Below, piece after piece: positions 797-46,101 of a DNA stretch of 47,387 bases (positions are counted from its first letter, which is position 1; each line of letters opens with the position of its first letter). The stretch covers positions 1 through 47,387 of the forward strand of contig JAJPJL010000107.1 in the NCBI GenBank assembly GCA_021324255.1, written 5' to 3'. Position numbers and translations under genes: made by a program. The notes under the pieces are model-generated. The model worked only from the letters and a program-made list of their open reading frames with translations, ran no database searches and had not been told where the DNA came from. The DNA comes from Bacillota bacterium (lineage in GTDB: Bacteria; Sysuimicrobiota; Sysuimicrobiia; Sysuimicrobiales; Segetimicrobiaceae).

Positions 797-838
797 ACAG
801 TACCCGGCCTCGGCGCGACGTACGTTGCGGGGGCGCAA
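797..838 (-). promoter_or_regulatory. Crp/Fnr-type operator with -10 box, sulfocyanin promoter
   Basis: Perfect palindrome TTGCG-GGGG-CGCAA at 825-838, read on the minus strand, followed after exactly 22 nt by TACTGT (802-797) as -10. This geometry centres the operator near -41.5. The start codon is at 721. Apart from this promoter, 722-1214 holds no gene that could be supported. Confidence 0.75.
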
Positions 839-1214
839 ACCCGCCTGCTCCGGGCGCGCCCGCAGCGGATGTTGGATCTCCGCAAGGTCGGCGGCGGACC
901 ACGCGCCGATGATGCCCGGGGACGTGCGGGCACGGTCGAGATCGAGACGAACGATACCCGCGTGAGCGTGGGTCCAGGCCGACCGCGCCGCGCCGGGCGC
1001 GGCGAGCGAGCTTCGACGACGCGCAGGCGGCGGACCTCGGCACGGCGGTCAATCACGACGGGCCCGGGCGGAAGCATGGCGCGACGCCCCGGCCGACCGT
1101 CCAGGCCGGGAGCGGGCTACAGCCGCGCCGCATTCGGCTCGGCGGTGCGCCGAGGATCGAACCGGCCGCAGCGGAGAGGGAACCGGGGCGTGCACCCGAA
1201 ACGTCCTGTCCGCG

Positions 1215-2238
1215 ATGCACCGGATCGAGTTTACCATCGACGCGGTCCCTCCGTTTCGTCTGGATCTGACGGCGTGGGCGCTTCGACGGCGTCCGGGGAA
1301 CCTCATTGACCAGTGGGACGGACATGCGTATCGGCGAGTCCTCGGGGACGACGGCGGACTCGCGGTCGTGCGGGTCGAACAGACGGGGCCCCCCGGAGTC
1401 GGGCCGGCTCCTGGTCACCGCGGTCGTTCCGAAGCGGTCTCAGGACGCGGCGGGCGCGATCACGGCATCGTTGGACCGGCTGTTAGGACTCGGGCGGGAC
1501 CTCAGGGAGTTCTACGCAGTGGCGGCGCACGATCCGAGGTTGCTCGACCTCTGCGCACGGTTCCGAGGGCTCAAACCGCCTCGGTTCGCCACGGCGTTCG
1601 AGGCCCTGGTGAACGCCATGGCTTGCCAACAAGTCTCCCTCGCTGCGGGCATTCACTTATTGAACCGGCTGGCTGAGCGGTATGGGCGATCCTTCGGGCG
1701 CGGCGCCTCGCGAATCTGTGTGCTGCCGCATCCCGAACAACTCGGCCGGTGCCGCGACGATGCCCTCCGGGCCCTCGGATTTAGCCGACACAAGAGCCAA
1801 GCGATCATCGAGCTCGCGAGCGCACTCGTCCATCACGGCCTCGATCTGGAAGCCCTGCAGGCGGTACCCGATGCGGGCCTCGTGCCCTGGCTGCGTAGGC
1901 TGCGTACGTTGCGCGGCGTGGGACCGTGGACCGCCGAGTATACTCTCTTGGGCGGGTACGGCCGCCTGGACAGCTTTCCCGTGGACGATGTCGGCGGCCG
2001 CAACAATTTGCGGCGATGGCTTGGCATCACGGGGCCGTTTGGACCGACACGCGCCCGCCGAGCCCTCGAACGGTGGCGTCCGTACCGGGGCCTGATCTAC
2101 TTCCATCTGCTCCTCGACGCCCTTGATCGCGCCGGACACCTGCGAACTCCGTCGCCCGCCGACACCTCGCCGACACCTGAACAAGCAGCCTCCGCACTCG
2201 CAAGGTCCTGCCCATGCACGACCCGGGATCATTTCTGA
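1215..2238 (+). pseudogene. alkA: DNA-3-methyladenine glycosylase II (AlkA-type HhH-GPD), frameshifted
   Basis: Base-excision repair glycosylase for alkylated purines. The N-terminal AlkA domain (FRLDLTAWALRRRPGN) is read from the ATG at 1215. The catalytic half is in another frame and shows FEALVNAMACQQVSL, the helix-hairpin-helix LRGVGPWTAEY and the catalytic Asp in DSFPVDDVG. The frames meet at a G/C homopolymer (GGGGCCCCCC) around 1384-1394. Total length equals 3n+1, so one extra base would explain it; the repaired protein would be about 340 residues, normal for the family. A single homopolymer indel could be a sequencing error, so the gene may be functional. No regulated promoter was found upstream. 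Confidence 0.8.
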
Positions 2239-2281
2239 TGGAATCCGCGCGCCTGCGCTTGACCTTTGGCGAGTGCACGCA

Positions 2282-3068
2282 TCACCGGCGCGGGGGAGGT
2301 TCCGCCGCCGACGAACTCGGCCATGATTCTGGCATCGAGCCCCCTGGCCGGGCGGTGGGTGCTTCTGACCGGTGCCAAATGACAAGAAGCGAGATCGCGA
2401 GCAACACGATCCCGCTGCCGAACCACATGATCGCGCCGGCAACGTGCTGATCACCGAGTGCGCCAACCGGGGCGAGGCCCGGCACCGCGCCGTAGTGCGG
2501 GTAGAGCACGTGACCGGACAGCGTGATCAGCGTGCCGAGCAACGCGCGCTGGGTCATCCCGGCGATCAGATAGGCGCTCAGCACCGAAGGGCTGAGGGAC
2601 CGGCTGCGCGGCGGGGCCCCAATCACCGGTCACCAGAACAGCAGCCCCGCCGCGAAGAAACAGAGGTGCTGGGCGTTGTGCAGCATCCCGTTGCTCTCGA
2701 CCGCGTCATACGCGGCGGGCAGGTGCCACAGGATAACCGCGCAGACGAGCCACGCCGGTAGCGACCTCGACGGGAGCGCCCGCCGGAATCTCAGTCCGGC
2801 TGAGGGTCCACTGCCACATCCGGGCGGTCACGGCCACCCTATCCGCCGGCACGCCGAGCCGAGCCGCGGCGACCCCGCGGTAGGGCAGCCACCACAGCGA
2901 GGCGAGGAACCCGGCGGCGAGCACGACGATCAGCGCCGCGAAGAGGCGGCGCCGGATCGGCCGCCGCAGTAGATGGGGGCGTAGGCGGCCGGCGGGGCTG
3001 CCCGCCCGCACGATCGTCCAGGCCAGCCCGATGACCAGGAACCCCATAAACGGCACCCAGGGATCCAT
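2282..3068 (-). pseudogene. Deletion fusion: 5' cytochrome c oxidase subunit II joined to 3' CtaG
   Basis: The first about 100 residues from ATG 3068 look like subunit II of a heme-copper oxidase: two membrane segments, then the start of the cupredoxin domain (RMWQWTLSRTEIPAGAPVE). The CuA ligands are absent. Immediately after, in another frame, the sequence becomes the C-terminal half of the oxidase assembly protein CtaG (VESNGMLHNAQHLCFFAAG, then LLGTLITLSGHVLYPHYG). A TGA at 2630-2632 sits where the second Trp of LLFWWPVIG is expected. Subunit I and the rest of the oxidase operon, normally between these genes, are missing. Best read as a non-functional relic of an oxidase operon after a large internal deletion. 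A chimeric assembly is the alternative. Confidence 0.7.
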
Positions 3069-3150
3069 CGCCGCCCCCTTCCGTCGCCCTCCCCGCGTGA
3101 CGCACTTGCACGACCCACAGCCGAGTTTCGTGACGTGGTCACGCCGGTGT

Positions 3151-3164
3151 TCGCGATGGTGCAA
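3151..3164 (-). promoter_or_regulatory. Degenerate operator upstream of the oxidase relic
   Basis: On the minus strand TTGCA-CCAT-CGCGA, then ACACCGG, resembling the operators elsewhere in the window (two half-site mismatches). No good -10 box lies 22 nt downstream. It sits 83 bases above the coxB-like start. Confidence 0.35.
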
Positions 3165-3235
3165 GTACTTGCGCGTCGCGATCGGCAGTCTCGCCCGGGC
3201 CGGCCAATGTCCGAACGCACCAACGTGGTCGGCGG

Positions 3236-4215: not shown

Positions 4216-4857
4216 TCACATGAACTTACTCGGAAACTGCTTCGCGATGGCCTGAGCGAGCGCATCGGAGATCGTGTCGATGTTCTTCAGCATCGGATCC
4301 CACGTCCCTGCTTCCTCGTCCAGCTTGCCCGCCGCGGCCGCATTGCACTCCGCGATATGCAACGCCACGTGCGAGCCAAGCAGCGACAGCACCGCGTCCT
4401 TCGGCAGGTTGTGGTTCGCAGTGCTCAGGAACGTGGCGAGCGCCTCCCCGTTTTGCGTCATCGCCTTCGCGGCCGCGTTCTCCGCGGCCTCGTCGCCCTT
4501 GAGGTCCGCCAAGCAATAGTTTCTCACTGCATTCACGTGGCCTGCAAACAGCGTCGCGAACTGCTGCCCGGCCGCCTCGCCATAGAAGGACGCGACGGCG
4601 CCGCCGAATGCCTTCGCGTTGCCGAGGGCTTGACGATACGCAACCGTCGCCTCCGCCGCGTTGCCGGCTTTGGTGGCGATCACCATCGACCGGACCCAAA
4701 AGACATGATCGACGAACAGGTTCCGCAGAGTCATGTCCAGGGCCGCGACTTTCGTCGAATTGGGCGCGGCCTGCGCGAAGCTCGCCGTCTGGCCGAGCGG
4801 CAACGTGAACAACACCACCGCCATCAGCACCGCCACCAGGAGTGGAGACCGGCTCAT
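4216..4857 (-). CDS. Secreted two-repeat helical protein of unknown function
   Basis: 213 residues with an N-terminal signal peptide (hydrophobic stretch to about residue 25, then TASFAQA). The mature part is all-helical and appears to hold two related units: LRNLFVDHVFWVRSMVIATK near residue 45 and LLGSHVALHIAEC near residue 160, each with conserved His/Trp-type positions. Proteins of this kind in Gram-positive bacteria are usually annotated as hypothetical. Start chosen at 4857 because of GGGAGGTG upstream. It has one of the clearest regulated promoters of the window (4906-4947), so it probably belongs to the same redox response as the copper and hemerythrin proteins. A metal- or heme-binding helical bundle is possible but not shown. 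Confidence 0.75.
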   Translation of the reverse strand: MSRSPLLVAVLMAVVLFTLPLGQTASFAQAAPNSTKVAALDMTLRNLFVDHVFWVRSMVIATKAGNAAEATVAYRQALGNAKAFGGAVASFYGEAAGQQFATLFAGHVNAVRNYCLADLKGDEAAENAAAKAMTQNGEALATFLSTANHNLPKDAVLSLLGSHVALHIAECNAAAAGKLDEEAGTWDPMLKNIDTISDALAQAIAKQFPSKFM

Positions 4858-4905: not shown

Positions 4906-4947
4906 ACCGTAACACGCGTGATCGCGCTCATCGTTGCGTTTGAACAA
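4906..4947 (-). promoter_or_regulatory. Crp/Fnr-type operator with -10 box
   Basis: TTGTT-CAAA-CGCAA (minus strand, 4947-4934), 22-nt gap, then TACGGT at 4911-4906. The right half-site is perfect. It drives the secreted helical protein starting at 4857. Confidence 0.65.
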
Positions 4948-5015: not shown

Positions 5016-6165
5016 TCAGCGATGGGCCCGTGCGACGGCCGACGTGAGTGCCCGTTTGACGTACACTTGCGCCAGGTGCTCTCGGTACTCGGATGTGGCG
5101 AAGATATCGTCGCTCAGGTCAATGCCTTCGATGGCCCGGTGGCTCGCACGCTCGATCGCCTCGAGCGTAGGCACCTGACCGGTCAACGCCTGTTCGACCT
5201 CCGCGGCGCGGACCGCCTTCGGCCCGGCCCCGGTGATCCCGAGACGGACCGTTTCGGCCGTCCCGTCGGCCGCAAGCGTGATGGCCGCCGCCACGCCGAC
5301 CACCGGGTAGCCGGACGCCGGGTGCGGAAACTCCGCATACGCCATCCCGGTGCGACTTGGCGGTTTCGGCATCACAATCGCGGTCACGACCTCGTCCGGT
5401 CTCAGCGCCGTCGTGAACAGGTCGACAAAGAACTCCGCTGCGGCGACCGTCCGCTCCCCCACCGGTCCGACCGCCGTGATCGCGGCTTCCAGGGCAAGCA
5501 CAACCGCCGGCATGTTCGAGGCCGGATCGGCGTGCACGATGGACCCGCCGATCGTGCCGCGGTTCCGCACCTGGAGGACTCCGACCGTCGCCGCGGCCTC
5601 GGCGAGGCCCGGCAACGACGCCTGAATGACGGGGGACTGCATCAAGGCCCAGTAGGTCGTGGTCGGACCGACCACCACCGAATCGCCAACGTCGCGCACG
5701 CCCGAGAGCTCGCGAAGATATTGCACGGCTCTTACGATGTTCTGGTAGCCTGTACACCGGCAAAGGTTGCCTTCCAGACCGTCTCGGATTTCATCGGCGC
5801 TCGGGCCGGGATTCTTCTGCAGCAGATCACACGGTGCCATGATCATGCCCGGCGTGCAAAAGCCGCACTGCAAAGCCGTGCATCTCCCAGAAGCCGCGCT
5901 GGAGCGGGCGCAGCTCCCGGCCGCGGACCAGCCCCTCGATGGTGGTAATCGCCGCCCCGTCCGCCTGGACCGCCAGGACGGTGCACGACTTGATCGCCGC
6001 GCCGTCGAGCAGGATGGTGCAGGTCCCGCACTGGGTGGTGTCGCACCCGATATGCGTCCCCGTGAGGTTCAGCACGTCACAGAGGTAATGCACCAGCAGC
6101 AGCCGCGACTCCACCTCGTTGGTGTGCGCCGCCCCATTGACAGTGACCGAGAGCCGGTGCTTCAT
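5016..6165 (-). pseudogene. CoxS::CoxM fusion remnant of a xanthine-oxidase/CO-dehydrogenase family enzyme
   Basis: The 5' part is a complete small iron-sulfur subunit: plant-type [2Fe-2S] cysteines in [12 protein letters not shown] and the second cluster in [10 protein letters not shown] and [10 protein letters not shown]. One extra T in a TTT run near 5874 shifts the frame; total length is 3n+1. Directly after the subunit's end (AVQYLREL) the frame runs into the medium FAD subunit, but its first roughly 60-70 residues with the first FAD-binding element are missing; the text resumes at [13 protein letters not shown] and continues through [20 protein letters not shown] to a normal C-terminus. 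The stop of coxS and start of coxM have therefore been deleted. No molybdenum-binding large subunit lies nearby. Start 6165 follows GAGGAGG. Probably non-functional; a natural two-domain fusion would retain the whole FAD domain. Confidence 0.75.
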
Positions 6166-6272
6166 TGAGGTCGCCCTCCTCGCGGGTCGTTGCGCCTTCT
6201 GATTCCCCGCGTATCGCCCCACGCGTGCGGCCGCACCAGCCCGGCGGTCGGGGCGCAGCCCCTCGCGCTCTT

Positions 6273-6314
6273 AAGCCTGCCACGGATCCCGATGTCCGTC
6301 TTGAGAAAACGCAA
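6273..6314 (-). promoter_or_regulatory. Crp/Fnr-type operator upstream of coxS::coxM
   Basis: TTGCG-TTTT-CTCAA (minus strand, 6314-6301) with AGGCTT 22 nt downstream at 6278-6273. One half-site mismatch. It lies 136 bases above the coxS start at 6165. Confidence 0.5.
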
Positions 6315-7519: not shown

Positions 7520-7561
7520 ACGGTAGCGCGTCCGCAGTATGCGGTCTTTGAGGTAGCGCAA
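7520..7561 (-). promoter_or_regulatory. Crp/Fnr-type operator with -10 box, ahpD-like promoter
   Basis: TTGCG-CTAC-CTCAA followed by AGACCG on the minus strand (7561-7548), 22 nt, then TACCGT at 7525-7520. The -10 and the next two bases (TACCGTGG) match the cupin/hemerythrin promoter at 37947-37988. Confidence 0.75.
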
Positions 7562-8699: not shown

Positions 8700-8741
8700 T
8701 TGCGCCCGCGCAAAGACCGGCGCAGAATCGACGTGTAGGTT
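8700..8741 (+). promoter_or_regulatory. Crp/Fnr-type operator with -10 box, molybdopterin protein promoter
   Basis: Perfect TTGCG-CCCG-CGCAA at 8700-8713 followed by AGACCG, then exactly 22 nt and TAGGTT at 8736-8741. The start codon follows at 8785. This is the only strong copy of the motif that serves a plus-strand gene, so the directional geometry is independent of strand. Confidence 0.75.
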
Positions 8742-18714: not shown

Positions 18715-18756
18715 AGCATACGATCAAGGCCTTGGCGGATCGTTGCGATACTGCAA
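18715..18756 (-). promoter_or_regulatory. Crp/Fnr-type operator with -10 box
   Basis: TTGCA-GTAT-CGCAA (minus strand, 18756-18743), 22 nt, then TATGCT at 18720-18715, the closest to a consensus -10 in the set. It drives the small protein starting at 18674. Confidence 0.65.
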
Positions 18757-19769: not shown

Positions 19770-19964
19770 CCCTCACCGCTCACAGAATATCGCGAGCAGT
19801 TCCGCGGATCGTTGCGCGGCAGCAAACGCGGCTCTGCAGGCGCAGTATCTCCGGGGAGCCGTCGCGGTGCGCGGATGCGGACGGTTACGATGAGACGGGA
19901 GCGCGCTGTCGGCGGCGCGCTCGCCGCGCGGAGCCGCGATCGCGCTCGGGCCGGTGACCGCGGC

Positions 19965-22689: not shown

Positions 22690-22733
22690 CTGTCTCCCCT
22701 CCTCGATGCCAGCGTCCCGCGCCCCGCCCCGCG

Positions 22734-23372: not shown

Positions 23373-23414
23373 AGCTTGCAATTGCGCGCAGGGTACGTCG
23401 TTGCGAATACGCAA
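23373..23414 (-). promoter_or_regulatory. Crp/Fnr-type operator, sulfocyanin/sulfite oxidase promoter
   Basis: Perfect palindrome TTGCG-TATT-CGCAA followed by CGACG on the minus strand (23414-23401). The hexamer 22 nt downstream is CAAGCT (23378-23373), a poor -10. It lies 126 bases above the sulfocyanin start, farther than most. Confidence 0.6.
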
Positions 23415-24224: not shown

Positions 24225-24953
24225 TTATCGGCGCGGCGCGGTCGGGGTCAGCGACGGCCGCGGACGCACCGCACTGCGGTACCCCCGGTAGACGATCCAG
24301 GGCCGCCCGAGATAGAGCACGGGATAGCTCCACGCGTGGACGAGCCGGCTGAACGGCCACAGGGCGATGAGGAACCAAGCGCTGATCGCGTGGGCCTGGT
24401 ACAGCCACGGGGCGGTCGCCATCAGTTCCGGGTGCGGGTCGGCCGCGAAGAGGCCACGGAACCAGATCGCGACCGTCGCGCGGTAATCGTACCCCGGCCC
24501 GATCAGGTTGACGGCGATCGTCTCCGCGGCGCCGAGCCCGATGATCACGATCAGCAGCACGTAGACGGCAACGTCCACGCGGCTGGTCGTGACCGCCACC
24601 CGGCGCACCGCCACGCGCCGGTACACGAGGATCACGAGACCGATCCCGATCGCGACGATCGCGACCGTGCCGGCCACGGCCGAGAAGACGTGGTAGGTCG
24701 CTTCGGAGACGCCGATCGCGGCGGTCCAACTGGCCGGGATCAGGATACCGATCACGTGTCCGGCGATAGCGGCCAGGGTCCCGTAGTGGAACAGCGGGCT
24801 GCCCCACATGAGCAGGCGCCGCTCCTGCAGCTGCGTCGAGAGGCTCGTCCAGCCGAACTGGTCGTGCCGCCACCGCCACGCGTGGCCGACCGCAAACACC
24901 GCGATGGCCAGGTAGGGCAACACGATCCAGGCAAGCAAGGTGGCGCTGGTCAC
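24225..24953 (-). CDS. narI: Respiratory nitrate reductase, cytochrome b subunit
   Basis: 242 residues with five membrane segments. Histidines expected to hold the two b hemes are in the first helices (LFHYGTLAAIAGHVIG) and the last (YQAHAISAWFLIALWPFSRL, VHAWSYPV). It oxidises quinol and feeds electrons to NarH. Last gene of the narGHJI order, 13 bases after narJ. A broken partial copy lies just downstream at 23488-23850. Confidence 0.92.
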   Translation of the reverse strand: MTSATLLAWIVLPYLAIAVFAVGHAWRWRHDQFGWTSLSTQLQERRLLMWGSPLFHYGTLAAIAGHVIGILIPASWTAAIGVSEATYHVFSAVAGTVAIVAIGIGLVILVYRRVAVRRVAVTTSRVDVAVYVLLIVIIGLGAAETIAVNLIGPGYDYRATVAIWFRGLFAADPHPELMATAPWLYQAHAISAWFLIALWPFSRLVHAWSYPVLYLGRPWIVYRGYRSAVRPRPSLTPTAPRR

Positions 24954-24966
24954 GTCGTTGGCTCGG

Positions 24967-25617
24967 TCACGCCCGCCCGTCGGGCCACCCCGAGCGCGCC
25001 GGCGCGAACGGCTCGAGCCCCACCGACTCCGTGGGCGCCCCGTCCGCGGCGAGCCGGGTCACGAGCTCGCGCATCCGCCTGTCGAGCGGCGGCAGCGTGA
25101 GCCGGATCGCTTCGACCGCGGCCGCGTACGGACTCCCGGTGTTTACGAGCGCGCGGTGGAGGAGTTCCAGGCCCGGCCGGCACTCGGCCAAGACGGCCAC
25201 GGCGGCCTCCGGCGGAGCCTCCGAGGCGAACTCGAGGACGAGCGGCAGGTAGTCCGGCAGTTCGCGGGTCGTAGGCGCCAACCCGGCGGCGGCGTAGAGA
25301 TGCCGGAGGCGCACCAGCGCCATGCCGCGCTGGCGGCGGTCACCGTAGACATAGTAGGTGAGGTAGAGCGTGCTGCGCTTGCTCAGGTCGAACGTCGCGA
25401 CGTAGTGCTGCAGCAACGCCGAAGCCGGGGTGCCGGTCCAGTACCCTAGGAACGGCTCCAGCGCGCGCCGGGCCGGTGACTCGGGCAACGCACGCCCCGC
25501 GACCGCGAGCTCGGCGCGCGCTTCGAGCATATCGGCCGACGGATACTGCAGCAACGCCGACAGCAGTTTGTAGAGGTGGGCCCACGCCGGGGCCGAGGCC
25601 CGATGCGCGCGCGTCAT
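24967..25617 (-). CDS. narJ: Nitrate reductase assembly chaperone
   Basis: 216 residues of the TorD/NarJ helical chaperone family, which inserts the molybdenum cofactor into NarG before membrane docking. Seen: LYKLLSALLQYPSADMLEAR, ATFDLSKRSTLYLTYYVYGD, then RRQRGMALVRLRHLY, all characteristic of NarJ. Start 25617 overlaps the narH stop by 4 bases (ATGA), so translation is coupled; the open frame upstream is inside narH. Confidence 0.92.
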   Translation of the reverse strand: MTRAHRASAPAWAHLYKLLSALLQYPSADMLEARAELAVAGRALPESPARRALEPFLGYWTGTPASALLQHYVATFDLSKRSTLYLTYYVYGDRRQRGMALVRLRHLYAAAGLAPTTRELPDYLPLVLEFASEAPPEAAVAVLAECRPGLELLHRALVNTGSPYAAAVEAIRLTLPPLDRRMRELVTRLAADGAPTESVGLEPFAPARSGWPDGRA

Positions 25618-27182
25618 GACGGTTGCTCCGGCTCGGCTGCCATGGTCTCGCTCGCGCCGTGATCTGGCCGACGCGGTTGCACATGGACGAATTGGACGTG
25701 ATTGGCCCGGAAGTGACTGGCCGTGGCGGCGAACTGGCTCTCCCACCCGACGCTGCACCCGGTGTGCACCGCCGCGAGCCGGTCGGCGGTCTCCGTGTGG
25801 GCGGACGGGATCACGTACCGGTCCTCGTACTTCGCGATCGCAAGCAGCCGGTACAACTCATCGAGCGCCCCCGGGTCCATGCCGGCGCGGGCCGGAATCG
25901 CGGGGTCCGGCGTGCCACCGAGCTGCTGCTCGCGCATGTACGCTCGCAACGCGGCCAGCCGCCGCAGCGCGGCGCGCACGGGCTCCACGTCGCCGGCCGC
26001 CAGCAGGTTCGCCAGATACTGCAGCGGGATGCGCATTTGGTCAACGGCATAGAAGACATCGTCGGGGTCAGCGTCCGCCGCGCGCCGCGCCACCGCGTTA
26101 ACCACGGGCGACAGGGGCGGCACGTACCAGACCATCGGCAGCGTACGGAACTCGGGGTGCAGCGGCAGCGCCACCCGGTGGCGCACGGCAAGCGCGTAGA
26201 CCGGCGATCGCTGCGCCGCCTCGATCCAGTCCTCCGGAATGCCGTCCCGGCGGGCCTGCGCTTGCACCGTCGGGTCGGCGGGATCGCAGAAGACGCCGAG
26301 CTGCGCGTCGAGCAGCCGATGGGGGTCCCGGACGGACGCGGCCTCCCGGACCCCGTCGGCATCGTACAGGATCAGCCCGAGGTGGCGCAGCCGCCCGACG
26401 CACGTCTCGGAGCAGATCGTGGGCAACCCCGCTTCGATCCGCGGGTAGCAGAACGTGCACTTCTCGGCCTTGCCCGTCTGGTGGTTGAAGTACACTTTCT
26501 TGTACGGGCACCCGCTCACACAGAACCGCCAGCCGCGGCACTTGTCCTGATCGACCAGCACGATCCCGTCCTCTTCGCGCTTGTACATCGCGCCCGACGG
26601 GCACGACGCGACGCACGACGGATTCAGGCAGTGCTCGCAGATCCGGGGCAGGTAGAACATGAACGCCTGAGTGAACTCGAACTGCACCTGCGCTTCCATC
26701 CCGCGCAGATTGGGATCCGCGCCGGCGTGCTCCGGCGCTCCCGCCAGGTTGTCGTCCCAGTTCGCGCCGCCCCGGAGCGCGAGCGGCCGGCCGGTCAGCT
26801 GCGACCGGGCGCGCGCCACGGGATCGTCCGCCGACACGGGTGCCGTGAACAGCGTCTCGTAGTCGTACGTCCACGGCTCGGCGTAGTCGTCGATTGTCGG
26901 CAGGTCGGGATTGGCGAAGATCGTGAGCAGCTTGTACAGCCATCCGCCGCTCCGCAGTCGTAGCCGGCCGCGCCGGTCGAGCTCCCAGCCGCCGCGCCAA
27001 CGGTCCTGGTCCTCGTAGCGTTTCGGGTATCCGAGGCCCGGCTTGGTCTCGACGTTGTTGAACCAGACGTACTCGGTCCCGCGCCGGTTCGTCCACACCT
27101 GCTTGCAGGTGACGCTGCACGTGTGGCAGCCAATGCACTTGTCGAGGTTCATCACCATGCCGACGTTCACCATGATCCGCAT
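25614..27182 (-). CDS. narH: Respiratory nitrate reductase, iron-sulfur subunit
   Basis: 522 residues carrying four clusters. Cysteine groups visible: CIGCHTCSVTC near the N-terminus; CEHCLNPSCVASCPSG; CRGWRFCVSGCPYKK, where Trp replaces a Cys as in the [3Fe-4S] site of NarH; and CTFCYPRIEAG with CSETC. Transfers electrons from NarI hemes to NarG. The start ATG shares a base with the narG stop (TGATG), so it is translationally coupled. Intact. Confidence 0.95.
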   Translation of the reverse strand: MRIMVNVGMVMNLDKCIGCHTCSVTCKQVWTNRRGTEYVWFNNVETKPGLGYPKRYEDQDRWRGGWELDRRGRLRLRSGGWLYKLLTIFANPDLPTIDDYAEPWTYDYETLFTAPVSADDPVARARSQLTGRPLALRGGANWDDNLAGAPEHAGADPNLRGMEAQVQFEFTQAFMFYLPRICEHCLNPSCVASCPSGAMYKREEDGIVLVDQDKCRGWRFCVSGCPYKKVYFNHQTGKAEKCTFCYPRIEAGLPTICSETCVGRLRHLGLILYDADGVREAASVRDPHRLLDAQLGVFCDPADPTVQAQARRDGIPEDWIEAAQRSPVYALAVRHRVALPLHPEFRTLPMVWYVPPLSPVVNAVARRAADADPDDVFYAVDQMRIPLQYLANLLAAGDVEPVRAALRRLAALRAYMREQQLGGTPDPAIPARAGMDPGALDELYRLLAIAKYEDRYVIPSAHTETADRLAAVHTGCSVGWESQFAATASHFRANHVQFVHVQPRRPDHGASETMAAEPEQPS

Positions 27183-30100
27183 CAGAACCGGACCTCCGCC
27201 CGCCGCTTCCGCACCACCGCGATCTCGTCCCGCTGCGACCCGCACGGGCCGTAGTAGTTGAACCCCCACGACAGCTGCGCGTACCCGCCGATCAGGTGGG
27301 TCGGTTTGATCATCAGGCGCGTCAGGGAGTTGTCGGTGCCGCCGCGCCGCCCCGTGGTCTCCGTCCGCGGCGTCTCGAGGTGCCGGTCCTTGGCGTGATA
27401 CATGTAGCACGTGCCCGGCGGCATGCGGTGGGAGACGATCGCGCGGGTCGCCACGACCCCGTTGCGATTGTACACCTCGACCCAGTCGTTGTCCCGCACG
27501 CCCAGGCGCTCCGCGTCTTCGCGGCTCAGCCACAGGCCGGGCCCGCCGCGGAACAGGGTCAGCATGTGCAGGTTGTCCTGGTACTCCGAGTGGATCGAGA
27601 ACTTCGAGTGGGGCGTGAGATACCGCAGCGTCAGCTGCGCCGCGTCCGCATCCCCGGCCCGCTGGTCGCCGTAGTGCCGCGGCAGATTGAGCGGCGGCCG
27701 GTAGGCAGGCAGGCCTTCGCCCAGTTCCAACATCCACTCGTGGTCGAGGTAGAACTGCTGGCGCCCCGTCAGCGTGCGCCACGGCGTGCCGCGCTCCACG
27801 TTTTGGGTGAACGGCGCGTACCGGCGTCCCTCCGCCTCGATGCCGGACCACTCCGGCGACGTGATCACCGTGCGCGGCTGCGCCTGGGTGTCGGCAAAGG
27901 TGACCCGGTCGCCGGCCCGCGGTCCCGCGAGATCGGTGAGCCGTACGCCGGTGCGCTGTTCCAACGCGCGGAACCCCTCCACCGCGAGCCGGCCGTTCGT
28001 CGTGCCCGAGAGCGCGAGGATCGCGTCGCAGACCTGCTCCGCGCGTGCGAGCGAGGGCCGGCCGTCGGACGCGCCGCCGCGCACCGTCCCGTGGCGGCGG
28101 GCGAGCTCCTCGACCTCGCGGTCCGGCACCCAGCGCACACCCTTGGTCGTCGTGCCGAGCCGCTCGAGCAGCGGCCCCAGGGCCGTCAGTTGATCGGCCA
28201 CCGCCCCGTAGTCGCGCTCAACCACGATCAGGCGCGGCATTGTGCGCCCGGGCAGCGGCTCGACCTCGCCGGTCTTCCAGTCGCGGCCCCGCCCCTCGGG
28301 CTGGGCGAGCTCATCGGGCGTATCGTGCAGGAACGGGATCGCCAGCACGTCCCGCCGGACACCGAGGTGCGTCCGCGCGAGGCGTGCAAAGTCGCGCGCC
28401 AGGGTCACGAAGGCATCCCAGTCGGTGCGCGCCTCCCACGGCGGCGCGATCGCGGGGTTGAACGAGTTGACGAACGGGTGGAGATCGGTCGTCGAGAGGT
28501 CGAACTTCTCGTACCAGGTCGCCGCCGGCAGCACGATGTCGGAAAACAGGCACGTGCCGGTCATGCGGAAGTCGATCGTCGTGAGGAGATCGAGCTTCCC
28601 GGTGGGCGCCGGATCGCGCCACACCACCTCCGCGGGTCGCTGTTGGGGCGGCGTCTCGTCCGCCCGCACCGATTCGGCGGGCGCGCCGAGCAAGTGGCGC
28701 AGGAAGTACTCGTGCCCCTTCCCGGACGACGTGAGCAGGTTCGCGCGCCAGACCGTCAACACCCGCGGAACGTTCTCCGGCGCGTCGGGATCCTCCGCGG
28801 CGAAGCGCAATCGGCCGCTTCGCAGTTCATCGACGATGTGGCGTTCGACCGGCACCCTGGCGCGCGCCGCCTCGTCGACCAGGTCGAGCGGGTTCCGGTT
28901 GAACGCGGGATGCGCAGGCAGCCATCCCATGCGCGCAGCCTGCGCGTAGCAGTCGGCAAACGCGCGGCCTGTGAAGAGGCCGCGCCCGAGCGGCGACGCG
29001 AGTGTGCCGGGGCCGAGGACCTCGTAGCGCCACTGATCGGTAGCGAGGTACCAGAAAGGGGTGCCGGCCTGGTGGCGGGTCGGTCGTACCCAATCCGCGG
29101 CGAACGCGAGATGGAACCACCCCGTGAGCGGCCGCACCTTCTCCTGCCCGACGTAGTGCGCCCACCCGCCGCCGTTCTTCCCCTCGCACCCGCAGAGCAG
29201 CACGAGCGCGAGGAACGCGCGATACGTCTGGTCGGAGTGGTACCAGTGGTTCGTGCCCGCGCCCATGGCGATCATGGACCGGCCGCCCGTGCGCTCCGCG
29301 TTGCGCGCGAACTCTCGCGCGATCCGCGCCGCCTGGCCGGCGTCGATCGAGGTGATGGGCGCCTGCCACGCCGGCGTGTACGGCGCGGGGTCGTCGTAAC
29401 CGGCCGGCCAGTCCCCCGGCAGGCCGGCTCGCGCCACCCCGTACTGCGCAAGCACGAGATCGAAAACCGTCGTGACGAGCCGGCCGCTGACCGACCGGAC
29501 CGGCACACCCCGGCGCATGACGCTCCCGCCCTCGGTGTCGCCGACGTCGAAGCGCGGGAGATCAACCGGGATGTCGCGTTCCTGGCGCCCATACAGCGTG
29601 AGGGCGGGCTCGATCCCATCCAGACGCAGGTTCCACCGTCCGGTGCCTTCCTCGCCGTAGCGGAACCCGATCGAACCGTTCGGGACCGCGGGGCCCTCCG
29701 CGGCGGCGTCGAACACCACCGGCTTCCATTCGGCATGCTCGCCGCCCTCGCCGACGTCGGACGCCCGGAGGAAACGGTCCGGCACGTAGGCGCCCTCGCG
29801 CGCCCGCAGGGTGACCAGAAACGGCAGGTCAGTAAAACGGGTCGCGTAGTCGACGAACGCGGGCACCGGCCGGCGCACGTAGCACTCGGTCAGGATCACG
29901 TGTCCCATCGCCATGGCCAGCGCCGCGTCGGTGCCCGGGCGCACCGCCAGCCACTCGTCCGCGAACTTGGTGTGCTCCGCGTAGTCCGGCGAGACAACGA
30001 TGACCTTCTGGCCGCGGTAGCGCGCCTCGACCATGAAGTGCGTGTCGGGCGTGCGCGTGGTCGCCAGGTTGGTGCCCCAGACGATCAGATACCCCGCGTT

Positions 30101-30877
30101 CCACCAGTCTCCGGACTCGGGGACGTCGGTCTGATCGCCAAAGACCTGCGGCGAAGCCGGCGGCAGGTCGGCGTACCAGTCGTAGAAACTGAGTACCACG
30201 CCGCCGATCAGCGACAGGAACCGGGTGCCCGCCGCGTACGAGACCATGGACATCGCCGGGATGGGGGAGAAGCCCACAACGCGGTCCGGACCGTAGCGCT
30301 TGATCGTGTACACGTGGGCCGCGGCGATCAGCTCGCTCACCTCGTCCCAGGCGGCCCGCACGAACCCGCCGCGGCCGCGCTGCGCCTTGTACACGGTCGT
30401 TTTCGCAGGGTCTTCCACAATCGAGACCCACGCGGCCACGGGATCCTGATGCGCCGCGAGCGCGGCGCGCCAGAGGTCGAGGAGCGAACCGCGCACATAC
30501 GGGAAGCGCACCCGCAACGGGGAGTACGTGTACCAGGAGAACGAGGCGCCGCGGGGGCACCCCCGGGGTTCGTACTCCGGCATGTCGGGTCCGACTGACG
30601 GGTAGTCGACGGCCTGGGTCTCCCAGGTGATGATCCCGTCCTTCACAAACACCTGCCACGAGCACGAGCCCGTGCAGTTGACCCCGTGGGTCGAGCGGAC
30701 CACCTTGTCGTGCTGCCACCGGTCCCGGTAGAACGATTCCCAGGCCCGCGGGTCGCGCGTCAGCAGTGCCCAGCCCTGGGCAGACGATTCCGCGCGGCGG
30801 AAGTAGCGATGCGTCTCCATGAGCGCGGTCACGAAGGGCGAAGGCGGAGGGGTTGTGTCGTGGTTCACACGGCTCAC
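27182..30877 (-). CDS. narG: Respiratory nitrate reductase, molybdenum catalytic subunit
   Basis: About 1231 residues, full length. The N-terminal [4Fe-4S] motif HGVNCTGSCSW with its His ligand is present, as are VDYPSVGPDMPEYEPRGCPR, NAGYLIVWGTNLATTRTPD and AMGAGTNHWYHSDQTYRAFL. No Tat signal, so the active site faces the cytoplasm as in classical NarGHI. Reduces nitrate to nitrite with quinol electrons. The open frame begins with a GTG at 30922, but GTG 30877 has a better ribosome site (AGGTG) and is preferred. 30878-31254 holds no gene; it has a half-site (CGCAA) but no full operator, so the control of nar is unresolved. No transporter or nitrite reductase is adjacent. Confidence 0.94.
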   Translation of the reverse strand: MSRVNHDTTPPPSPFVTALMETHRYFRRAESSAQGWALLTRDPRAWESFYRDRWQHDKVVRSTHGVNCTGSCSWQVFVKDGIITWETQAVDYPSVGPDMPEYEPRGCPRGASFSWYTYSPLRVRFPYVRGSLLDLWRAALAAHQDPVAAWVSIVEDPAKTTVYKAQRGRGGFVRAAWDEVSELIAAAHVYTIKRYGPDRVVGFSPIPAMSMVSYAAGTRFLSLIGGVVLSFYDWYADLPPASPQVFGDQTDVPESGDWWNAGYLIVWGTNLATTRTPDTHFMVEARYRGQKVIVVSPDYAEHTKFADEWLAVRPGTDAALAMAMGHVILTECYVRRPVPAFVDYATRFTDLPFLVTLRAREGAYVPDRFLRASDVGEGGEHAEWKPVVFDAAAEGPAVPNGSIGFRYGEEGTGRWNLRLDGIEPALTLYGRQERDIPVDLPRFDVGDTEGGSVMRRGVPVRSVSGRLVTTVFDLVLAQYGVARAGLPGDWPAGYDDPAPYTPAWQAPITSIDAGQAARIAREFARNAERTGGRSMIAMGAGTNHWYHSDQTYRAFLALVLLCGCEGKNGGGWAHYVGQEKVRPLTGWFHLAFAADWVRPTRHQAGTPFWYLATDQWRYEVLGPGTLASPLGRGLFTGRAFADCYAQAARMGWLPAHPAFNRNPLDLVDEAARARVPVERHIVDELRSGRLRFAAEDPDAPENVPRVLTVWRANLLTSSGKGHEYFLRHLLGAPAESVRADETPPQQRPAEVVWRDPAPTGKLDLLTTIDFRMTGTCLFSDIVLPAATWYEKFDLSTTDLHPFVNSFNPAIAPPWEARTDWDAFVTLARDFARLARTHLGVRRDVLAIPFLHDTPDELAQPEGRGRDWKTGEVEPLPGRTMPRLIVVERDYGAVADQLTALGPLLERLGTTTKGVRWVPDREVEELARRHGTVRGGASDGRPSLARAEQVCDAILALSGTTNGRLAVEGFRALEQRTGVRLTDLAGPRAGDRVTFADTQAQPRTVITSPEWSGIEAEGRRYAPFTQNVERGTPWRTLTGRQQFYLDHEWMLELGEGLPAYRPPLNLPRHYGDQRAGDADAAQLTLRYLTPHSKFSIHSEYQDNLHMLTLFRGGPGLWLSREDAERLGVRDNDWVEVYNRNGVVATRAIVSHRMPPGTCYMYHAKDRHLETPRTETTGRRGGTDNSLTRLMIKPTHLIGGYAQLSWGFNYYGPCGSQRDEIAVVRKRRAEVRF

Positions 30878-31254
30878 GGGGGCACCTGATTCACCATGCG
30901 GCACCGGAGGCCTGACGAGCACACCGAGGCCGGCGGTTGCGTTTCAGCTATTCGTGCGACAGGCCGCGCCGGGCGCGCGTCCGCGACGCGATCCCTCACG
31001 TCGCGGAACCGAAGCGACCACGCCGTCAGTCCGGCGTCCCCCCTCGCCTTCACCATCAGCCCCCGACAGGTCCTCCCGAGCGGGCCGGTGGATGCTGGTC
31101 GACTCTGTGTGATGAGGCGCTCCACGGTTACCTGCCGCAAGGCGTCCAGGACATCCCGCGCGTGCGGGACCGCCGGAGCACAGGACGGGCGCCGACGCGC
31201 TCTGCGGTGATCACTGGGGATGATCATGTGTGCCTCATCGGGACGCGGTTCGCG

Positions 31255-32525: not shown

Positions 32526-32566
32526 ACCGTACCATGCGGATCAGGTTCGTCGTTGCGCAGACGCAA
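32526..32566 (-). promoter_or_regulatory. Crp/Fnr-type operator with -10 box
   Basis: Perfect TTGCG-TCTG-CGCAA followed by CGACG on the minus strand (32566-32553), then TACGGT at 32531-32526 with 21-nt spacing. It serves the FAD oxidoreductase starting at 32439. Confidence 0.72.
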
Positions 32567-33350: not shown

Positions 33351-33392
33351 AGGGTACGTGCCGTCGCGCACCCGGTCGTTGCGATGGCTCAA
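33351..33392 (-). promoter_or_regulatory. Crp/Fnr-type operator with -10 box, before the ftsH fragment
   Basis: TTGAG-CCAT-CGCAA followed by CGACCG on the minus strand (33392-33379), 22 nt, then TACCCT at 33356-33351. It is intact even though the gene it drives is cut off. Confidence 0.65.
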
Positions 33393-34784: not shown

Positions 34785-34832
34785 CGGTGATGTGCCCCCG
34801 AGCGCGTGATGGATCACGGACAATGGTATTCG

Positions 34833-36098: not shown

Positions 36099-36141
36099 CG
36101 TGCGCTCCGCCGTTGGCCGTGACCTCAACAGACCCCGCCGC

Positions 36142-36392: not shown

Positions 36393-36434
36393 AGTGCACC
36401 ACACGCCCGAGATCCGGTCTTTGCGGAAGCACAA
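36393..36434 (-). promoter_or_regulatory. Crp/Fnr-type operator, small protein/NDH-2 operon
   Basis: TTGTG-CTTC-CGCAA followed by AGACCGG on the minus strand (36434-36421), 22 nt, then TGCACT at 36398-36393. One half-site mismatch. The flank is shared with several other sites. Confidence 0.6.
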
Positions 36435-36940: not shown

Positions 36941-36984
36941 GGACGTTCTTCCTCCGGCCCCGCCCGCGTCGGCCACACCGCGCG

Positions 36985-37946: not shown

Positions 37947-37988
37947 ACGGTAGCCTACCGGCGCGCGCCGGTCCTTGCGCGCGCGCAA
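37947..37988 (-). promoter_or_regulatory. Crp/Fnr-type operator with -10 box, cupin/hemerythrin operon
   Basis: Perfect TTGCG-CGCG-CGCAA followed by GGACCGG on the minus strand (37988-37975), 22 nt, then TACCGT at 37952-37947. The -10 extends as TACCGTGG, identical to the ahpD-like promoter. It lies between the operon and the Crp/Fnr gene. Confidence 0.78.
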
Positions 37989-38130: not shown

Positions 38131-38889
38131 CTACAGCCTCCCGAACCCGTTCGCCAATGAGCACAACGCCTCGGGGGTCACCACGCGCACTCGCCCGCGG
38201 TGCACGTCGACCACGCCCTCGCGCCGCCAGCGGCTCAGGATGCGGGAGATCGTGTACGGTGACGTGCCCAAGTATTCCGCCATTTGCTGCTCCGTCAGGT
38301 GAAACTCCAACCCGCGGCCGTCACGCGGCGCCGCGTCGAAACCTCGCTGCATCGCGCGGGCCAGGCGCCGTTCGCAGGAATCGATCAATGTTTCTTCGAG
38401 ATGCGCCCACGTTTCGCGATTGTGTTGGACGATCACGGCAGCGAAGTTCTCGACCATGCGGGGATACCGCCGCAGCAGGCTGATGAACGGCTTGCCGTCC
38501 CACGCCAGCACGACGCTGTCTTGACTCGCCTGGAGCGAGGCCGGCGCCGGGGAGCGGCTGACCGCGTGCGCGCAGGCGAAGGCGTCTCCCGGATAATGGA
38601 ATCGCAGCAGCACCTGGCTCCCCCTCGATGAGACGCGAACGACGCTGATCCGGCCACGGAGGAGCACGTAGACGTTTGCGACGACTTCTGCCTGGCGACA
38701 GAGAAACTCGCCCGTCCGGAGACGGCGTGTGTTCGCGGTGCGGGTGAGGTCGTGCCAGGCCGAGGGGGGCAACCGACGAAGAAGGAGACAACGCGACAGG
38801 CTCGTGCGCTCGTCCAGCTCAGGGTGTATCCGAAGGGACTCCGTGACGGACGGAGACTTTGCGACCATAGCCGCCTCCACCTCGTCCAT
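38131..38889 (-). CDS. Crp/Fnr-family transcriptional regulator
   Basis: 252 residues. A cyclic-nucleotide-type sensor barrel spans about residues 30-150 (RTGEFLCRQAEVVANVYVLL, YPGDAFACAH), then a dimer helix, then the DNA-binding domain: HLTEQQMAEYLGTSPYTISR at 198-216, with ISRILSRW as recognition helix. Cys residues (34, 64, 106, 172, 243) do not form the Fnr iron-sulfur pattern, so a direct O2-sensing cluster is unlikely; heme or another ligand, as in DNR-type sensors, is possible. Start 38889 after GGGGAGAG. It is the only family member in the window and lies beside the cupin/hemerythrin operon that carries a perfect TTGCG-N4-CGCAA site, so it is the best candidate to bind that palindrome. 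No copy of the site was found before its own gene. Confidence 0.9.
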   Translation of the reverse strand: MDEVEAAMVAKSPSVTESLRIHPELDERTSLSRCLLLRRLPPSAWHDLTRTANTRRLRTGEFLCRQAEVVANVYVLLRGRISVVRVSSRGSQVLLRFHYPGDAFACAHAVSRSPAPASLQASQDSVVLAWDGKPFISLLRRYPRMVENFAAVIVQHNRETWAHLEETLIDSCERRLARAMQRGFDAAPRDGRGLEFHLTEQQMAEYLGTSPYTISRILSRWRREGVVDVHRGRVRVVTPEALCSLANGFGRL

Positions 38890-41189: not shown

Positions 41190-41540
41190 GTTCCAGGCTC
41201 CGGGATCGGCTCGATGCGGCCCAGCAGGAACACGTAGCACAGTCTGTTTGCGAACGACCTGATCCGCAGACGTTCCCAGGCTACCCTACACCAGAAGCGC
41301 ATGTGCGGGGCGCGCCGACGCGGCGGATCGCGCGACGTCGTTCGCAGCCGCTGTGGCAAGCGCCCCGTGCGGGCCGCGTCGGGCCGCGTCTAGAGAACCC
41401 ATTGCTTGATCACCTGCCGGCGGATGGTCCCGCCTTGACCACTCGGCTGGCCGTCACACGACTCGCCACTATGGCTCCACTCAGGTCACCGCGCGCGGAC
41501 GACATGCCGGCCTGAGCGCGGCGAGCGTGACCGCCCGGAG

Positions 41541-43986
41541 CTAGGCATCAGCCCAGGTCCACTTCGCGATCTCCGGCGGGTCCTCGAGCTGTTCGCGCGC
41601 GTACGCCTCCGCGTTGTCGATGCACCGGCGGCACTCGGCGATCAGCGCCTCGGCGCGGCCGCCGAGCCGCGTCGTACGGCGCAGCGCCTCCGCGCAGAGG
41701 TGGTAGCGGCTCATCCCGTTGAGCGAGACCATCTGAAACGGGGTCGTGGTCGTCCCCTGCTCCATGAACCCGCGGACGTGGAGCCGCTCCGTGTCCGGGC
41801 GGCCATGCATGACCTCGTGGATGGCACGCTGGTAGCCGTGAAAGGCGAAGACGACGGGCCGGTCGAGCGTGAACAGCACAGCGAAGTCGTCGTCCGACAA
41901 CCCGTGTGGGTGGACGCTCGGCGGGAACAGCGCCATCAGGTCCACCACGTTGACGACCCGGACGCGCAATTCCGGGGCCCGCCGCCGCAGCCACCACGCC
42001 GCGGCCACGGTCTCCAAGGTCGGGGCGTCCCCGCACGCGGCGAGGACAACGTCGGGCTCGCGGCCCTCGTCGTTGCTCGCCCACGCCCAGGCGGATGCGC
42101 CGCGCCGGCAGTGCTCGATCGCGGCCGGCAGATCGAGCCACTGCAGCTGCGGCTGCTTGTCGATCACGATCAGGTTCACGTAGTTGCGGCTGCGCAGGCA
42201 GTGGTCGGCGACGGACAGGAGGCAGTTCGCGTCCGGCGGCAGGTAGATCCGGGCCACGGTGCCGCGCTTGGACAGCACGACATCGATCAACCCCGGCCCC
42301 TGGTGGCTGAACCCGTTGTGGTCCTGCCGCCAGCAGGTGGACGTGAGCAGGATGTTGAGCGACGCGATCGGCGCCCGTCAGGGCAGCTTGGCCGTGCCTT
42401 CGAGCCACTTGGTGTGCTGCACGGTCATCGAGGCGGACACCATCGCGAACGCCTCGTAGGTGGCGAACAGGCCGTGCCGGCCGGTCAAGAGGTACCCTTC
42501 CAGCCAGCCCTGGCAGAGGTGCTCGCTCAGCACCTCCATGACGCGCCCGTCCGCGGAGACGTGGTCGTCGATCGCGAGCGTGGGCCCGACGAAGCAGCGG
42601 TTCTCCACCTCGAACACGTCCCCGAGGCGGTTGGAGTGGGTCTCGTCGGGACAGAACAGCCGGAAGTTCCGCCGGTCCGTGGTCCGCGCGTACACGTCGC
42701 GCAGCAGCGCGCCGAGGCACCGCGTGGATTCCCGGTGCTCGACGGCGGGACGTGCCACCTCGACGGCGTAATCCCGGAAGTCCGGCAGGTCGAGCGGCTC
42801 GAGCAGCCGGCCGCCGTTGGCGTGCGGATTGGCCCCCATGCGGCGGTCTCCACGCGGCGGGAGCGCCGCGAGATCGGGAGCCGGCGCGCCATCGCGGCCG
42901 AACAACTCCTCCGGCTTGTACCCGCGCAGCCACGCCTCGAGCATCGCAAGTTGCTCGGGCCGCGTCCGTACGTCCGGCAAGGGCACCTGATGCGCGCGGA
43001 ACGTCCCCTCGACGGGGAGGCCGTCGAGTTCCGTCGGGCCGGTCCAGCCCTTCGGGGTGCGCAGCACGATCGCCGGCCACCGGGGACGTCCGATGACGCC
43101 CCGCACGCGCGCCGCAGCCTGGATCGCGCGTATCTCGGCGTAGCACGTCTCCAGCGCCGCGGCGAACGCCGCGTGCATTTCGCCCGGGTCGTCGCCCGCG
43201 ACCAGGTGCACTTCGTAACCGTGTCCCTCGATCACGGCGCGCACGTCGCCGTCGCCGCGGCGGCCGAGTACGGTGGGCCCGCCGATCTTGTAACCGTTGA
43301 GGTGCAGGATCGGCAGCACCGCGCCGTCGCGAGCGGGATTGAGAAAATTGACCCCCTGCCACGACCCGGCGCACGGGCCGGTCTCCGCCTCACCGTCGCC
43401 CACGACGGCGGCGACGACCAGGTCGGGGTTGTCGAACGCCGCGCCGAACGCGTGGATCAGCACGTAGCCCAGTTCGCCGCCCTCGTGGATCGAGCCGGGC
43501 GTCGGCACGCTGACGTGACTCGGGATGCCGCCGGGCGTCGAGAACTGCCGGAATAGGCGCCGCAGGCCCTCCTCGGCGCGGGGCACGTCAGGATAGACTT
43601 CGGAGTAGGTGCCCTCGAGATAAACGTTGGCCACCACCGCCGGCCCGCCGTGCCCGGGGGCCGGCCAGGAAGATCATGTCCACGTCGTGCGCCACGATCA
43701 GCCGGTTGAGGTGGACATAAATGAAGTTCAGGCCGGGCGAGGTGCCCCAGTGCCCGAGCAGGCGCGGCTTGATGTGCTCGGGGCGCAGCGGTTCGCGCAG
43801 CAGCGGGTTGTCGCGCAGGTAGATCTGTCCGACCGTCAGATAGTTGGCGGCGCGCCAGTACCGGTCGATCCGCTCCAGCAGGTCGGCCGAGAACGCTGCC
43901 CCGCCTGGGGCGGCCTCCACCCGGGGCTCTCGTGGCGGCGCGGCGCCGCGCACGGTGCTCGAGATCCTGGCGTCAAAGTGATACAT
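41541..43986 (-). pseudogene. xfp: Xylulose-5-phosphate/fructose-6-phosphate phosphoketolase with one frameshift and one internal TGA
   Basis: Thiamine diphosphate enzyme that splits sugar phosphates to acetyl phosphate. Full family length (about 814 residues). Blocks: [20 protein letters not shown], then after a shift [69 protein letters not shown] and a C-terminal WTWADA. Frameshift: five Cs in place of four near 43655, within [12 protein letters not shown]. Nonsense: TGA at 42378-42380 in KLP-stop-RAPIASLN, where Trp is expected. Start 43986 after GGGAGGG. The rest is well conserved, so decay is recent or the lesions are sequence errors. Preceded by a weak operator at 44015-44056. Confidence 0.85.
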
Positions 43987-44014
43987 GAGGCGTCCCTCCC
44001 GAGCGCACGACCTG

Positions 44015-44056: not shown

Positions 44057-44137
44057 GATGCGCACGGTCACCGGGCTGTTGGGTGGCGAGATCACCGGGG
44101 CATAATCGTCGCCGCCAGCAACCGCTGTGCCGGCGCC

Positions 44138-45508: not shown

Positions 45509-45553
45509 GGCACAAGCCCTCACGATCACGGTTGATTTTGACGAGTCCGATCA

Positions 45554-45595
45554 GCAACATCCACTACCGCTCACGCGGTCTTTGATCGCGCACAC
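45554..45595 (-). promoter_or_regulatory. Crp/Fnr-type operator upstream of the TGA-containing flavoprotein
   Basis: Minus strand GTGTG-CGCG-ATCAA followed by AGACCGCGTGA (45595-45582), then TGTTGC 22 nt downstream at 45559-45554. Two half-site mismatches, but the flank is shared with five other sites. Confidence 0.5.
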
Positions 45596-45703
45596 CCGAG
45601 CGTCTCGCAGGATCAGCAGCGTCCTGCAGGATGTGTTCCGTTGGCCGGCACGCGATGCCGCGTCGACCGCTCCTCGCGGACGGTCCGCGCGTGCGTCGCC
45701 GCG

Positions 45704-45994
45704 TCAACGGAAGCCGTACGTCGCGACCAACTCTTCCTTGCTCATGTGGTAATACGCGGCGTTCATTTCGATGTGGGTCTTCCACTGGTCGGGCACCCCG
45801 GCCTCCGGGAAGATCGCGGAGACGGGACATACCGACTCGCAGGCGCCGCAATCGATGCACTCCTCGGGATTGATGTACAGTTTGGTCTCCTCTTGTTCCT
45901 CGTCCACCTTCGGATGGATGCAATCGACCGGACATACCTCCACGCAGGAGCGGTCCTTTACGTTGATACACGGCTCCGTGATGACGTAGGCCAT
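45704..45994 (-). CDS. fdxA: Seven-iron ferredoxin ([3Fe-4S][4Fe-4S])
   Basis: 96 residues. N-terminal CINVKDRSCVEVCPVDCI carries the spaced cysteines of a [3Fe-4S] plus shared site; EECIDCGACESVCPVSAI is the [4Fe-4S] motif. The tail (WKTHIEMNAAYYHMSKEELV) matches the 7-Fe ferredoxins of actinobacteria and Thermus. Cytoplasmic one-electron carrier. Start 45994 after GAGGT. A possible operator lies 94 bases upstream (46088-46101). Candidate partner of the FAD oxidoreductase at 31255-32439. Confidence 0.9.
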   Translation of the reverse strand: MAYVITEPCINVKDRSCVEVCPVDCIHPKVDEEQEETKLYINPEECIDCGACESVCPVSAIFPEAGVPDQWKTHIEMNAAYYHMSKEELVATYGFR

Positions 45995-46087
45995 GGCGGT
46001 GTACCTCGTCTCCTCACACCGGATTCACTCTGGGCGGGTCAAGCGAGTCACAGCTCTCACGATGATGAACAATCGAGGCCCACGCGC

Positions 46088-46101
46088 TTGCGCGCGTGCA
46101 C
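46088..46101 (-). promoter_or_regulatory. Weak operator candidate upstream of the ferredoxin
   Basis: Minus strand GTGCA-CGCG-CGCAA; right half-site perfect, left has two mismatches. No good -10 at 22 nt (TCATCG). Confidence 0.35.

Follow-up and report, generated by a model that had tools for sequence, protein, structure and literature searches.

The window analysed here, the whole of a 47,387-nt stretch (positions 1 to 47,387 of contig JAJPJL010000107.1, assembly GCA_021324255.1), comes from an uncultured Bacillota bacterium placed by GTDB in the Segetimicrobiaceae of the Sysuimicrobiota. At the core of the locus lies narGHJI, encoding a respiratory nitrate reductase, accompanied by genes for sulfocyanin-like, molybdopterin-binding, AhpD-like, hemerythrin, cupin, DUF1858-like and NDH-2-like proteins and by one gene of the Crp/Fnr family of regulators, P0001. 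The palindrome TTGCG-N4-CGCAA recurs across the locus, and an earlier note on this DNA had proposed from it that many redox genes form one regulon, with operators spaced like those of Crp/Fnr proteins and of a specificity distinct from those known. The regulon is supported by the analysis described here and the distinct specificity is not: the palindromes are predicted to be operators of an NnrR-type Crp/Fnr activator, and the genes behind them would form a nitric oxide (NO) or nitrosative-response regulon around narGHJI (probability about 0.85).

Five perfect palindromes, located exactly where the earlier note had placed them (Table 1), occur in the window against 0.06 expected, a number reached in none of 100 shuffles, and among all 1,024 five-base half-sites with gaps of 0–10, none is as strongly over-represented in the window as TTGCG with a gap of 4. 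The genome (3.74 Mb) contains nine perfect sites in all, five of them on the window contig, which makes up 1.3% of it. With up to two mismatches allowed, 38 copies were found in the window against 34.7 expected, which is chance level, so that two-mismatch copies are uninformative alone and imperfect sites require independent support. Using a matrix trained on 16 sites, all outside the window (on further contigs of the same genome or in relatives within the family), 11 oriented window sites were recovered at a cut-off of at least 17 bits, compared to a mean of 0.1 in Markov shuffles. All 11 are non-coding, in a window of which called genes cover ~76%, and gene starts with a ribosome-binding site lie downstream of them, mostly at 65–150 nt; the comparison of motif frequency inside and upstream of genes that had been put forward earlier thus comes out in favor of the regulon.

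The CG core was then left free in the loose pattern TTG-N8-CAA-NGA-N19-TANNNT, with the reversed pattern as the control. This pattern matched the genome 13 times against 0 for the control, on four contigs only (C9, two matches; C46, three; C68, one; C73, seven), and matched 12 family genomes 31 times against 4; though the core was unconstrained, one or both half-sites read TTGCG or CGCAA in nearly all matches. Three window sites were among the six best genome hits of a sequence model built without the window sites, in a scan that scored the best 150 of 2,694 first-look candidates and hence yields an incomplete list of the regulon.

Read in the direction of the gene behind them, the sites share a fixed unit, TTGCGC-N2-GCGCAA-NGAC, with TANNNT 22 nt after the palindrome. 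With the -10 hexamer set at -12 to -7, the center of the palindrome falls at -41.5 relative to the predicted start sites, and G-A-C at -33, -32 and -31 matches the GAC within the -35 hexamer TTGACA, the TT of which is replaced by operator bases; an extended -10 (G two bases before the hexamer, GnTANNNT) is present at 14 of 20 family sites. A center at -41.5 together with a -35 element degenerate except for GAC is the usual arrangement of class II activator-dependent FNR and CRP promoters, and the predicted promoters at the window operators have this class II geometry.

Ten of the 16 sites listed in the earlier note are among the 11 supported ones. The imperfect copies at 4934, 7548, 18743, 33379 and 36421 score 18–33 bits with the outside-trained matrix and are followed by GA(C/T) and, at 22 nt, by a -10-like hexamer; a further site, 19812-19825 on the minus strand (21.5 bits), was missing from that list. 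The other six sites, namely, 6301-6314 (one mismatch) and the weak copies at 3151, 7774, 44043, 45582 and 46088, lack -35/-10 support and score below 9 bits in the gene direction, a level at which the null gives 3.6 hits per window. By eye, 44043 resembles coding sequence; 45582 precedes a dihydrolipoamide-dehydrogenase-like gene and 46088 a ferredoxin gene, and because the orthologues of both in the relative G005 carry good sites, the degenerate sequences at these two positions may be decayed sites. Since the palindrome itself is directionless, direction was taken from the -10 box; each site had been said to lie upstream of a gene and in its direction, which holds for the supported sites, where the -10 box agrees with the gene in each of the 11 cases.

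Sites recur upstream of orthologues in relatives, and the conservation check proposed in the note thus also favors the regulon. In G001, the AhpD orthologue (85% identical) has the same site arrangement (G001:C66:10630), the orthologue of the FAD oxidoreductase (64% identical) carries a site (G001:C66:16464), and the pair of SorA-like and sulfocyanin genes lies downstream of site C66:7045, which is also followed by a gene related to the one behind window site 19812. Orthologues of the small molybdopterin protein (59% identical) carry the site in both G005:C48 and G009:C27, as does the G005 orthologue (59% identical) of the 70-aa DUF1858-like gene (G005:C89:98289). A second copy of the cupin gene, on contig C72 of the same genome and 90% identical, also has a site.

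The same operator was found in other phyla. A genome collection was scanned with the regulator alignment, yielding loci from Chloroflexota, Acidobacteriota, Desulfobacterota, Planctomycetota and others. In a motif-free test of 79 loci near related regulators, TTGCG alone stood out strongly among the 1,024 half-sites (z-score 42.5; runner-up 4.8), with 60 sites in 53 loci against 1.4 expected; the FNR half-site, TTGAT, was not enriched. Of 120 orientations, 40 have TANNNT at precisely 22 nt from the palindrome, compared with about one for most other distances; the cross-phylum consensus is TTGCGC-YR-GCGCAA-AGAC. Genes behind these sites include those for NirK, hydroxylamine reductase (Hcp), NrfH, flavorubredoxin-like/flavodiiron proteins, ScdA_N proteins and DUF1858 proteins (hybrid-cluster-associated); genes resembling those for AhpD and hemerythrin were recognized among them by eye. 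The set is a nitrosative and nitrogen-oxide program. A literature search on NnrR operators in Chloroflexi returned nothing beyond incidental mention. The window operator matches the NnrR consensus of alphaproteobacteria, ctTTGcgnnnncgCAAag (PMC1274295, Rodionov et al. 2005), and its specificity is therefore not new; with NnrR homologues encoded in the genome, the distinct specificity proposed earlier is not supported.

P0001 is the one Crp/Fnr protein of the window, and nine homologues are present in the genome. Among the characterized proteins tested, its closest relative is S. meliloti NnrR (28% identity, 107 bits, E 5e-33), compared with 58 bits to the best PDB chain and 47 bits to S. meliloti FixK. 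The Crp/Fnr gene of S. meliloti pSymA was taken as nnrR because of its neighborhood: it adjoins nirK (TIGR02376, 553 bits), norB/C/Q/D-like genes and a gene of NnrS type. The identification of nnrR, nirK and nor was made from sequence. A paralogue on contig C9 of the genome (denoted C9) is closer to NnrR than P0001 is (39% identity, E 1e-55), and its neighbors are NnrS-like, hemerythrin-like and DUF59-like genes, named by eye, and two operators. Another paralogue, C46a (contig C46, 4988-6310; L040), combines a Crp/Fnr domain, whose recognition helix is NnrR-like, with a fused N-terminal region that by eye resembles a DcmR-type sensory (MEDS) domain; proteins of this type recur in the family. 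The recognition helices read GTTLYTASR in C9, GTSPYTISR in P0001, STTQFTVSR in C46a and GTTLHTVSR in NnrR; the specificity position (Glu181 of CRP) is occupied by His, Tyr or Phe in these four proteins and by Glu in CRP, FNR and FixK. In a phylogenetic tree that has E. coli CRP and FNR among its references and is without DNR and HcpR, the regulators group with NnrR: 33 NnrR-like proteins, including P0001, are set apart from CRP and FNR/FixK with support of 85/94.

Several observations weigh against an NnrR-type regulon. At 28% identity, P0001 is a divergent homologue on a long branch, and the support for the NnrR-like clade is moderate. Tyr93 of R. sphaeroides NnrR has been reported as important (PMC8510549); the aligned Tyr, which by way of residue 92 in S. 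meliloti NnrR probably corresponds to it, is kept in C9 and absent from P0001 and C46a. The co-occurrence of regulator and perfect site across the order is imperfect: in G022, G028 and G034 the regulator is present and a perfect site absent, and G017, G026 and G036 lack a close NnrR-like gene yet contain one strict site apiece. Finally, no Cu nitrite reductase, the classic NnrR target, was found in this genome.

Within the cluster, P0001 is encoded next to the strongest site; this location, its long branch and the loss of the NnrR Tyr would suit a Crp/Fnr specificity peculiar to this lineage, with P0001 as its reader and with oxygen or redox state, not NO, as the signal. We consider this unlikely, given that the operator is identical to the NnrR consensus and recurs close to NnrR-like proteins of many phyla. 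Furthermore, the positional counterpart of P0001 in G001 is N-terminally degraded and the sites there persist, and in G005 the regulator amid the site-bearing orthologues is of the C9 type; these two observations weakly favor C9 rather than P0001 as the regulator at the window sites. Alternatively, a Crp/Fnr-family protein could sit over the -35 region and block the promoters until a signal releases it, and because the palindrome touches the -35 element, such occlusion is conceivable; against it stand the class II geometry, typical of activation, and the role of NnrR as an activator in Bradyrhizobium (PMC6710368), which make repression improbable. An origin of the palindromes by chance or from the composition of a 69% G+C sequence, which the chance-level two-mismatch counts and the six unsupported sites might suggest, is refuted for the eleven supported sites by the perfect-site count, the outside-trained matrix and their non-coding position, as well as by the excess of the loose pattern, the cross-phylum enrichment of TTGCG and the TANNNT spike at 22 nt.

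Under NnrR-type activation, NO or a related nitrogen-oxide signal, suggested by the target genes, would probably activate a regulator dimer (C9, P0001 or C46a, possibly differing between sites). The dimer would bind the 14-bp palindrome at -41.5 and contact RNA polymerase on a weak promoter, in which GAC at -33 to -31 would be all that is left of the -35 element, the TT being absent, followed by the extended -10. Switched on in this way would be narGHJI and the AhpD, hemerythrin, cupin, DUF1858-like, NDH-2-like, molybdopterin and sulfocyanin genes. An operator of its own was not found for narGHJI in the window scan, and the order of the genes indicates that it is probably read through from the promoter at 32553. 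The DUF1858 assignment of the gene at 36142-36354, which gave no hit in Pfam, rests on resemblance.

Table 1. Predicted operators, with the genes behind them, and other principal features of the window (scores of operators from the matrix trained outside the window)
Feature	Coordinates	Strand	Details	Score	Downstream gene(s) or remark
Operator 825-838	797..838	-	perfect; -10 TACTGT; without GAC	21.2 bits	sulfocyanin-like (SoxE) 293-721, PF06525
Operator 4934-4947	4906..4947	-	imperfect; -10 TACGGT	18.1 bits	213-aa gene 4216-4857, family unnamed
Operator 7548-7561	7520..7561	-	one mismatch; AGAC; -10 TACCGT	32.6 bits	AhpD-like 7003-7476
Operator 8700-8713	8700..8741	+	perfect; AGAC; -10 TAGGTT	33.8 bits	small molybdopterin-binding gene 8785-9282
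Operator 18743-18756	18715..18756	-	one mismatch; -10 TATGCT	20.3 bits	91-aa ORF 18399-18674, then MFS transporter 16328-17665
Operator 19812-19825	19784..19825	-	-10 TATTCT	21.5 bits	unnamed gene, start ~19729-19783, end 18851
Operator 23401-23414	23373..23414	-	perfect; weak -10 CAAGCT	19.8 bits	sulfocyanin-like 22799-23275 and SorA-like molybdopterin enzyme 21478-22983
narGHJI	24225..30922	-	respiratory nitrate reductase	TIGR01580 (narG), 1688 bits	core of the locus
Operator 32553-32566	32526..32566	-	perfect; CGAC; -10 TACGGT at 21-nt spacing	27.2 bits	FAD oxidoreductase 31255-32439
Operator 33379-33392	33351..33392	-	one mismatch; CGAC; -10 TACCCT	22.5 bits	93-aa FtsH-extracellular-like gene 33044-33325
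Operator 36421-36434	36393..36434	-	one mismatch; AGAC; -10 TGCACT	28.2 bits	70-aa DUF1858-like 36142-36354 and NDH-2-like 34833-36128
Operator 37975-37988	37947..37988	-	perfect; GGAC; -10 TACCGT	34.9 bits	cupin 37511-37897, hemerythrins 36985-37446 and 36491-36994
P0001, Crp/Fnr-family regulator	38131..38889	-	PF00027 and PF13545		divergent NnrR-like paralogue, candidate operator reader

Several other features of the locus were recorded. A 463-aa protein (33432-34823, minus strand) without a Pfam or NCBIfam match is 61% identical to one encoded beside the C9 gene and shows a weak likeness (E 3e-12) to a protein of the pSymA nir/nor region, and is perhaps an unnamed nitrogen-oxide membrane protein. 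In the same genome, a search for heme-copper oxidases (PF00115) returned one divergent NO-reductase-like candidate, with no site nearby; this subunit I homologue (contig C85, 45423-46709; L091) has HNMVN at the active-site histidine helix and is possibly an unusual NO-reductase-like enzyme. Within 21478-23275 (minus strand), the SorA/SorT-like molybdopterin enzyme overlaps at its N-terminus the sulfocyanin-like ORF in another frame, and the pair is kept in G001. Fe-S and FAD pieces of an enzyme of the CO-dehydrogenase/xanthine-dehydrogenase type occupy two overlapping frames at 5016-6222 (minus strand), and the large molybdopterin subunit was not found in the adjoining called genes. The minus strand also encodes an FGGY-family carbohydrate kinase as two ORFs, with the N- and C-terminal domains apart (39668-41240), and a phosphoketolase (XFP) in three ORFs in different frames (41541-43986); on contig C68 of the same genome, a single long ORF (837 aa) encodes the phosphoketolase, and across 418 aa it shares 79% identity with the copy in the window. 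The split copy reflects either frameshifts or a decayed paralogue. A ComA-type (2R)-phospho-3-sulfolactate synthase (PF02679; 10715-11545, plus strand) beside an MmgE/PrpD gene is apparently unrelated to the regulon.

The uncultured lineage thereby gains a concrete, testable nitrosative/nitrate regulon, in which otherwise unexplained DUF1858-like, cupin, hemerythrin, sulfocyanin and molybdopterin neighbors would be tied to nitrogen-oxide physiology, and the unit TTGCGCYRGCGCAA-AGAC-N18-TANNNT should make such regulons readable from metagenomes of Chloroflexota, Acidobacteriota, Desulfobacterota and Planctomycetota. More tentatively, NnrR-type control might extend beyond proteobacteria as a nitrosative/nitrate module shared by many phyla with one rigid operator-promoter unit, and in this lineage several paralogues, such as P0001, devoid of the Tyr, and the sensor-fused C46a, might share the operator, so that different signals converge on one regulon.

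Among the known systems, the FNR and DNR regulons resemble this one in the Crp/Fnr family of the regulator, a 14-bp operator with a 4-bp gap, the class II position and a link to anaerobic nitrogen-oxide respiration. Their operator, however, is TTGAT-N4-ATCAA; FNR has Glu at the specificity position and carries an Fe-S cluster, the N-terminal Cys motif of which cannot be made out in either P0001 or C9. The unenriched TTGAT, and Tyr or Phe in place of Glu in the recognition helix, speak against an FNR regulon. HcpR drives hcp and other nitrosative-stress genes, as the TTGCG operator appears to do in other phyla, but its operators, wTGTGA-N6-TCACAw, TTGAC-N4-GTCAA or GTAAC-N4-GTTAC (PMC1274295), differ from TTGCG-N4-CGCAA. 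FixK2 of Bradyrhizobium, also of the Crp/Fnr family, recognizes the 14-bp palindrome TTG(A/C)-N6-(T/G)CAA, which overlaps the TTGCG motif (PMC6710368); unlike P0001, FixK has Glu at the specificity position, and P0001 scores less than half as many bits against S. meliloti FixK as against NnrR.

The NnrR regulon of alphaproteobacteria shares with the present one the TTGCG-N4-CGCAA core, a homologous regulator with a near-identical recognition helix (in C9), and a set of targets that includes genes of nitrogen-oxide metabolism and a gene for a DUF1858 protein: in Bradyrhizobium diazoefficiens, norE (TTGCGTCGGCGCAA), nnrR (TTGCGCTATCGCAA) and a DUF1858 gene are among the NnrR-dependent genes that have such boxes (PMC6710368). 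The region upstream of S. meliloti nirK likewise contains TTG-N8-CAA-AGA, with TANNNT at 21 nt. The regulon described here differs in its phylum, in targets that comprise nar, molybdenum cofactor (Moco), sulfocyanin, hemerythrin, cupin and AhpD genes, in the presence of several NnrR-like paralogues in one genome, and in having Tyr or Phe, not His, where CRP has Glu181, residues that thus join His as companions of the TTGCG core. The operator specificity itself was already known.

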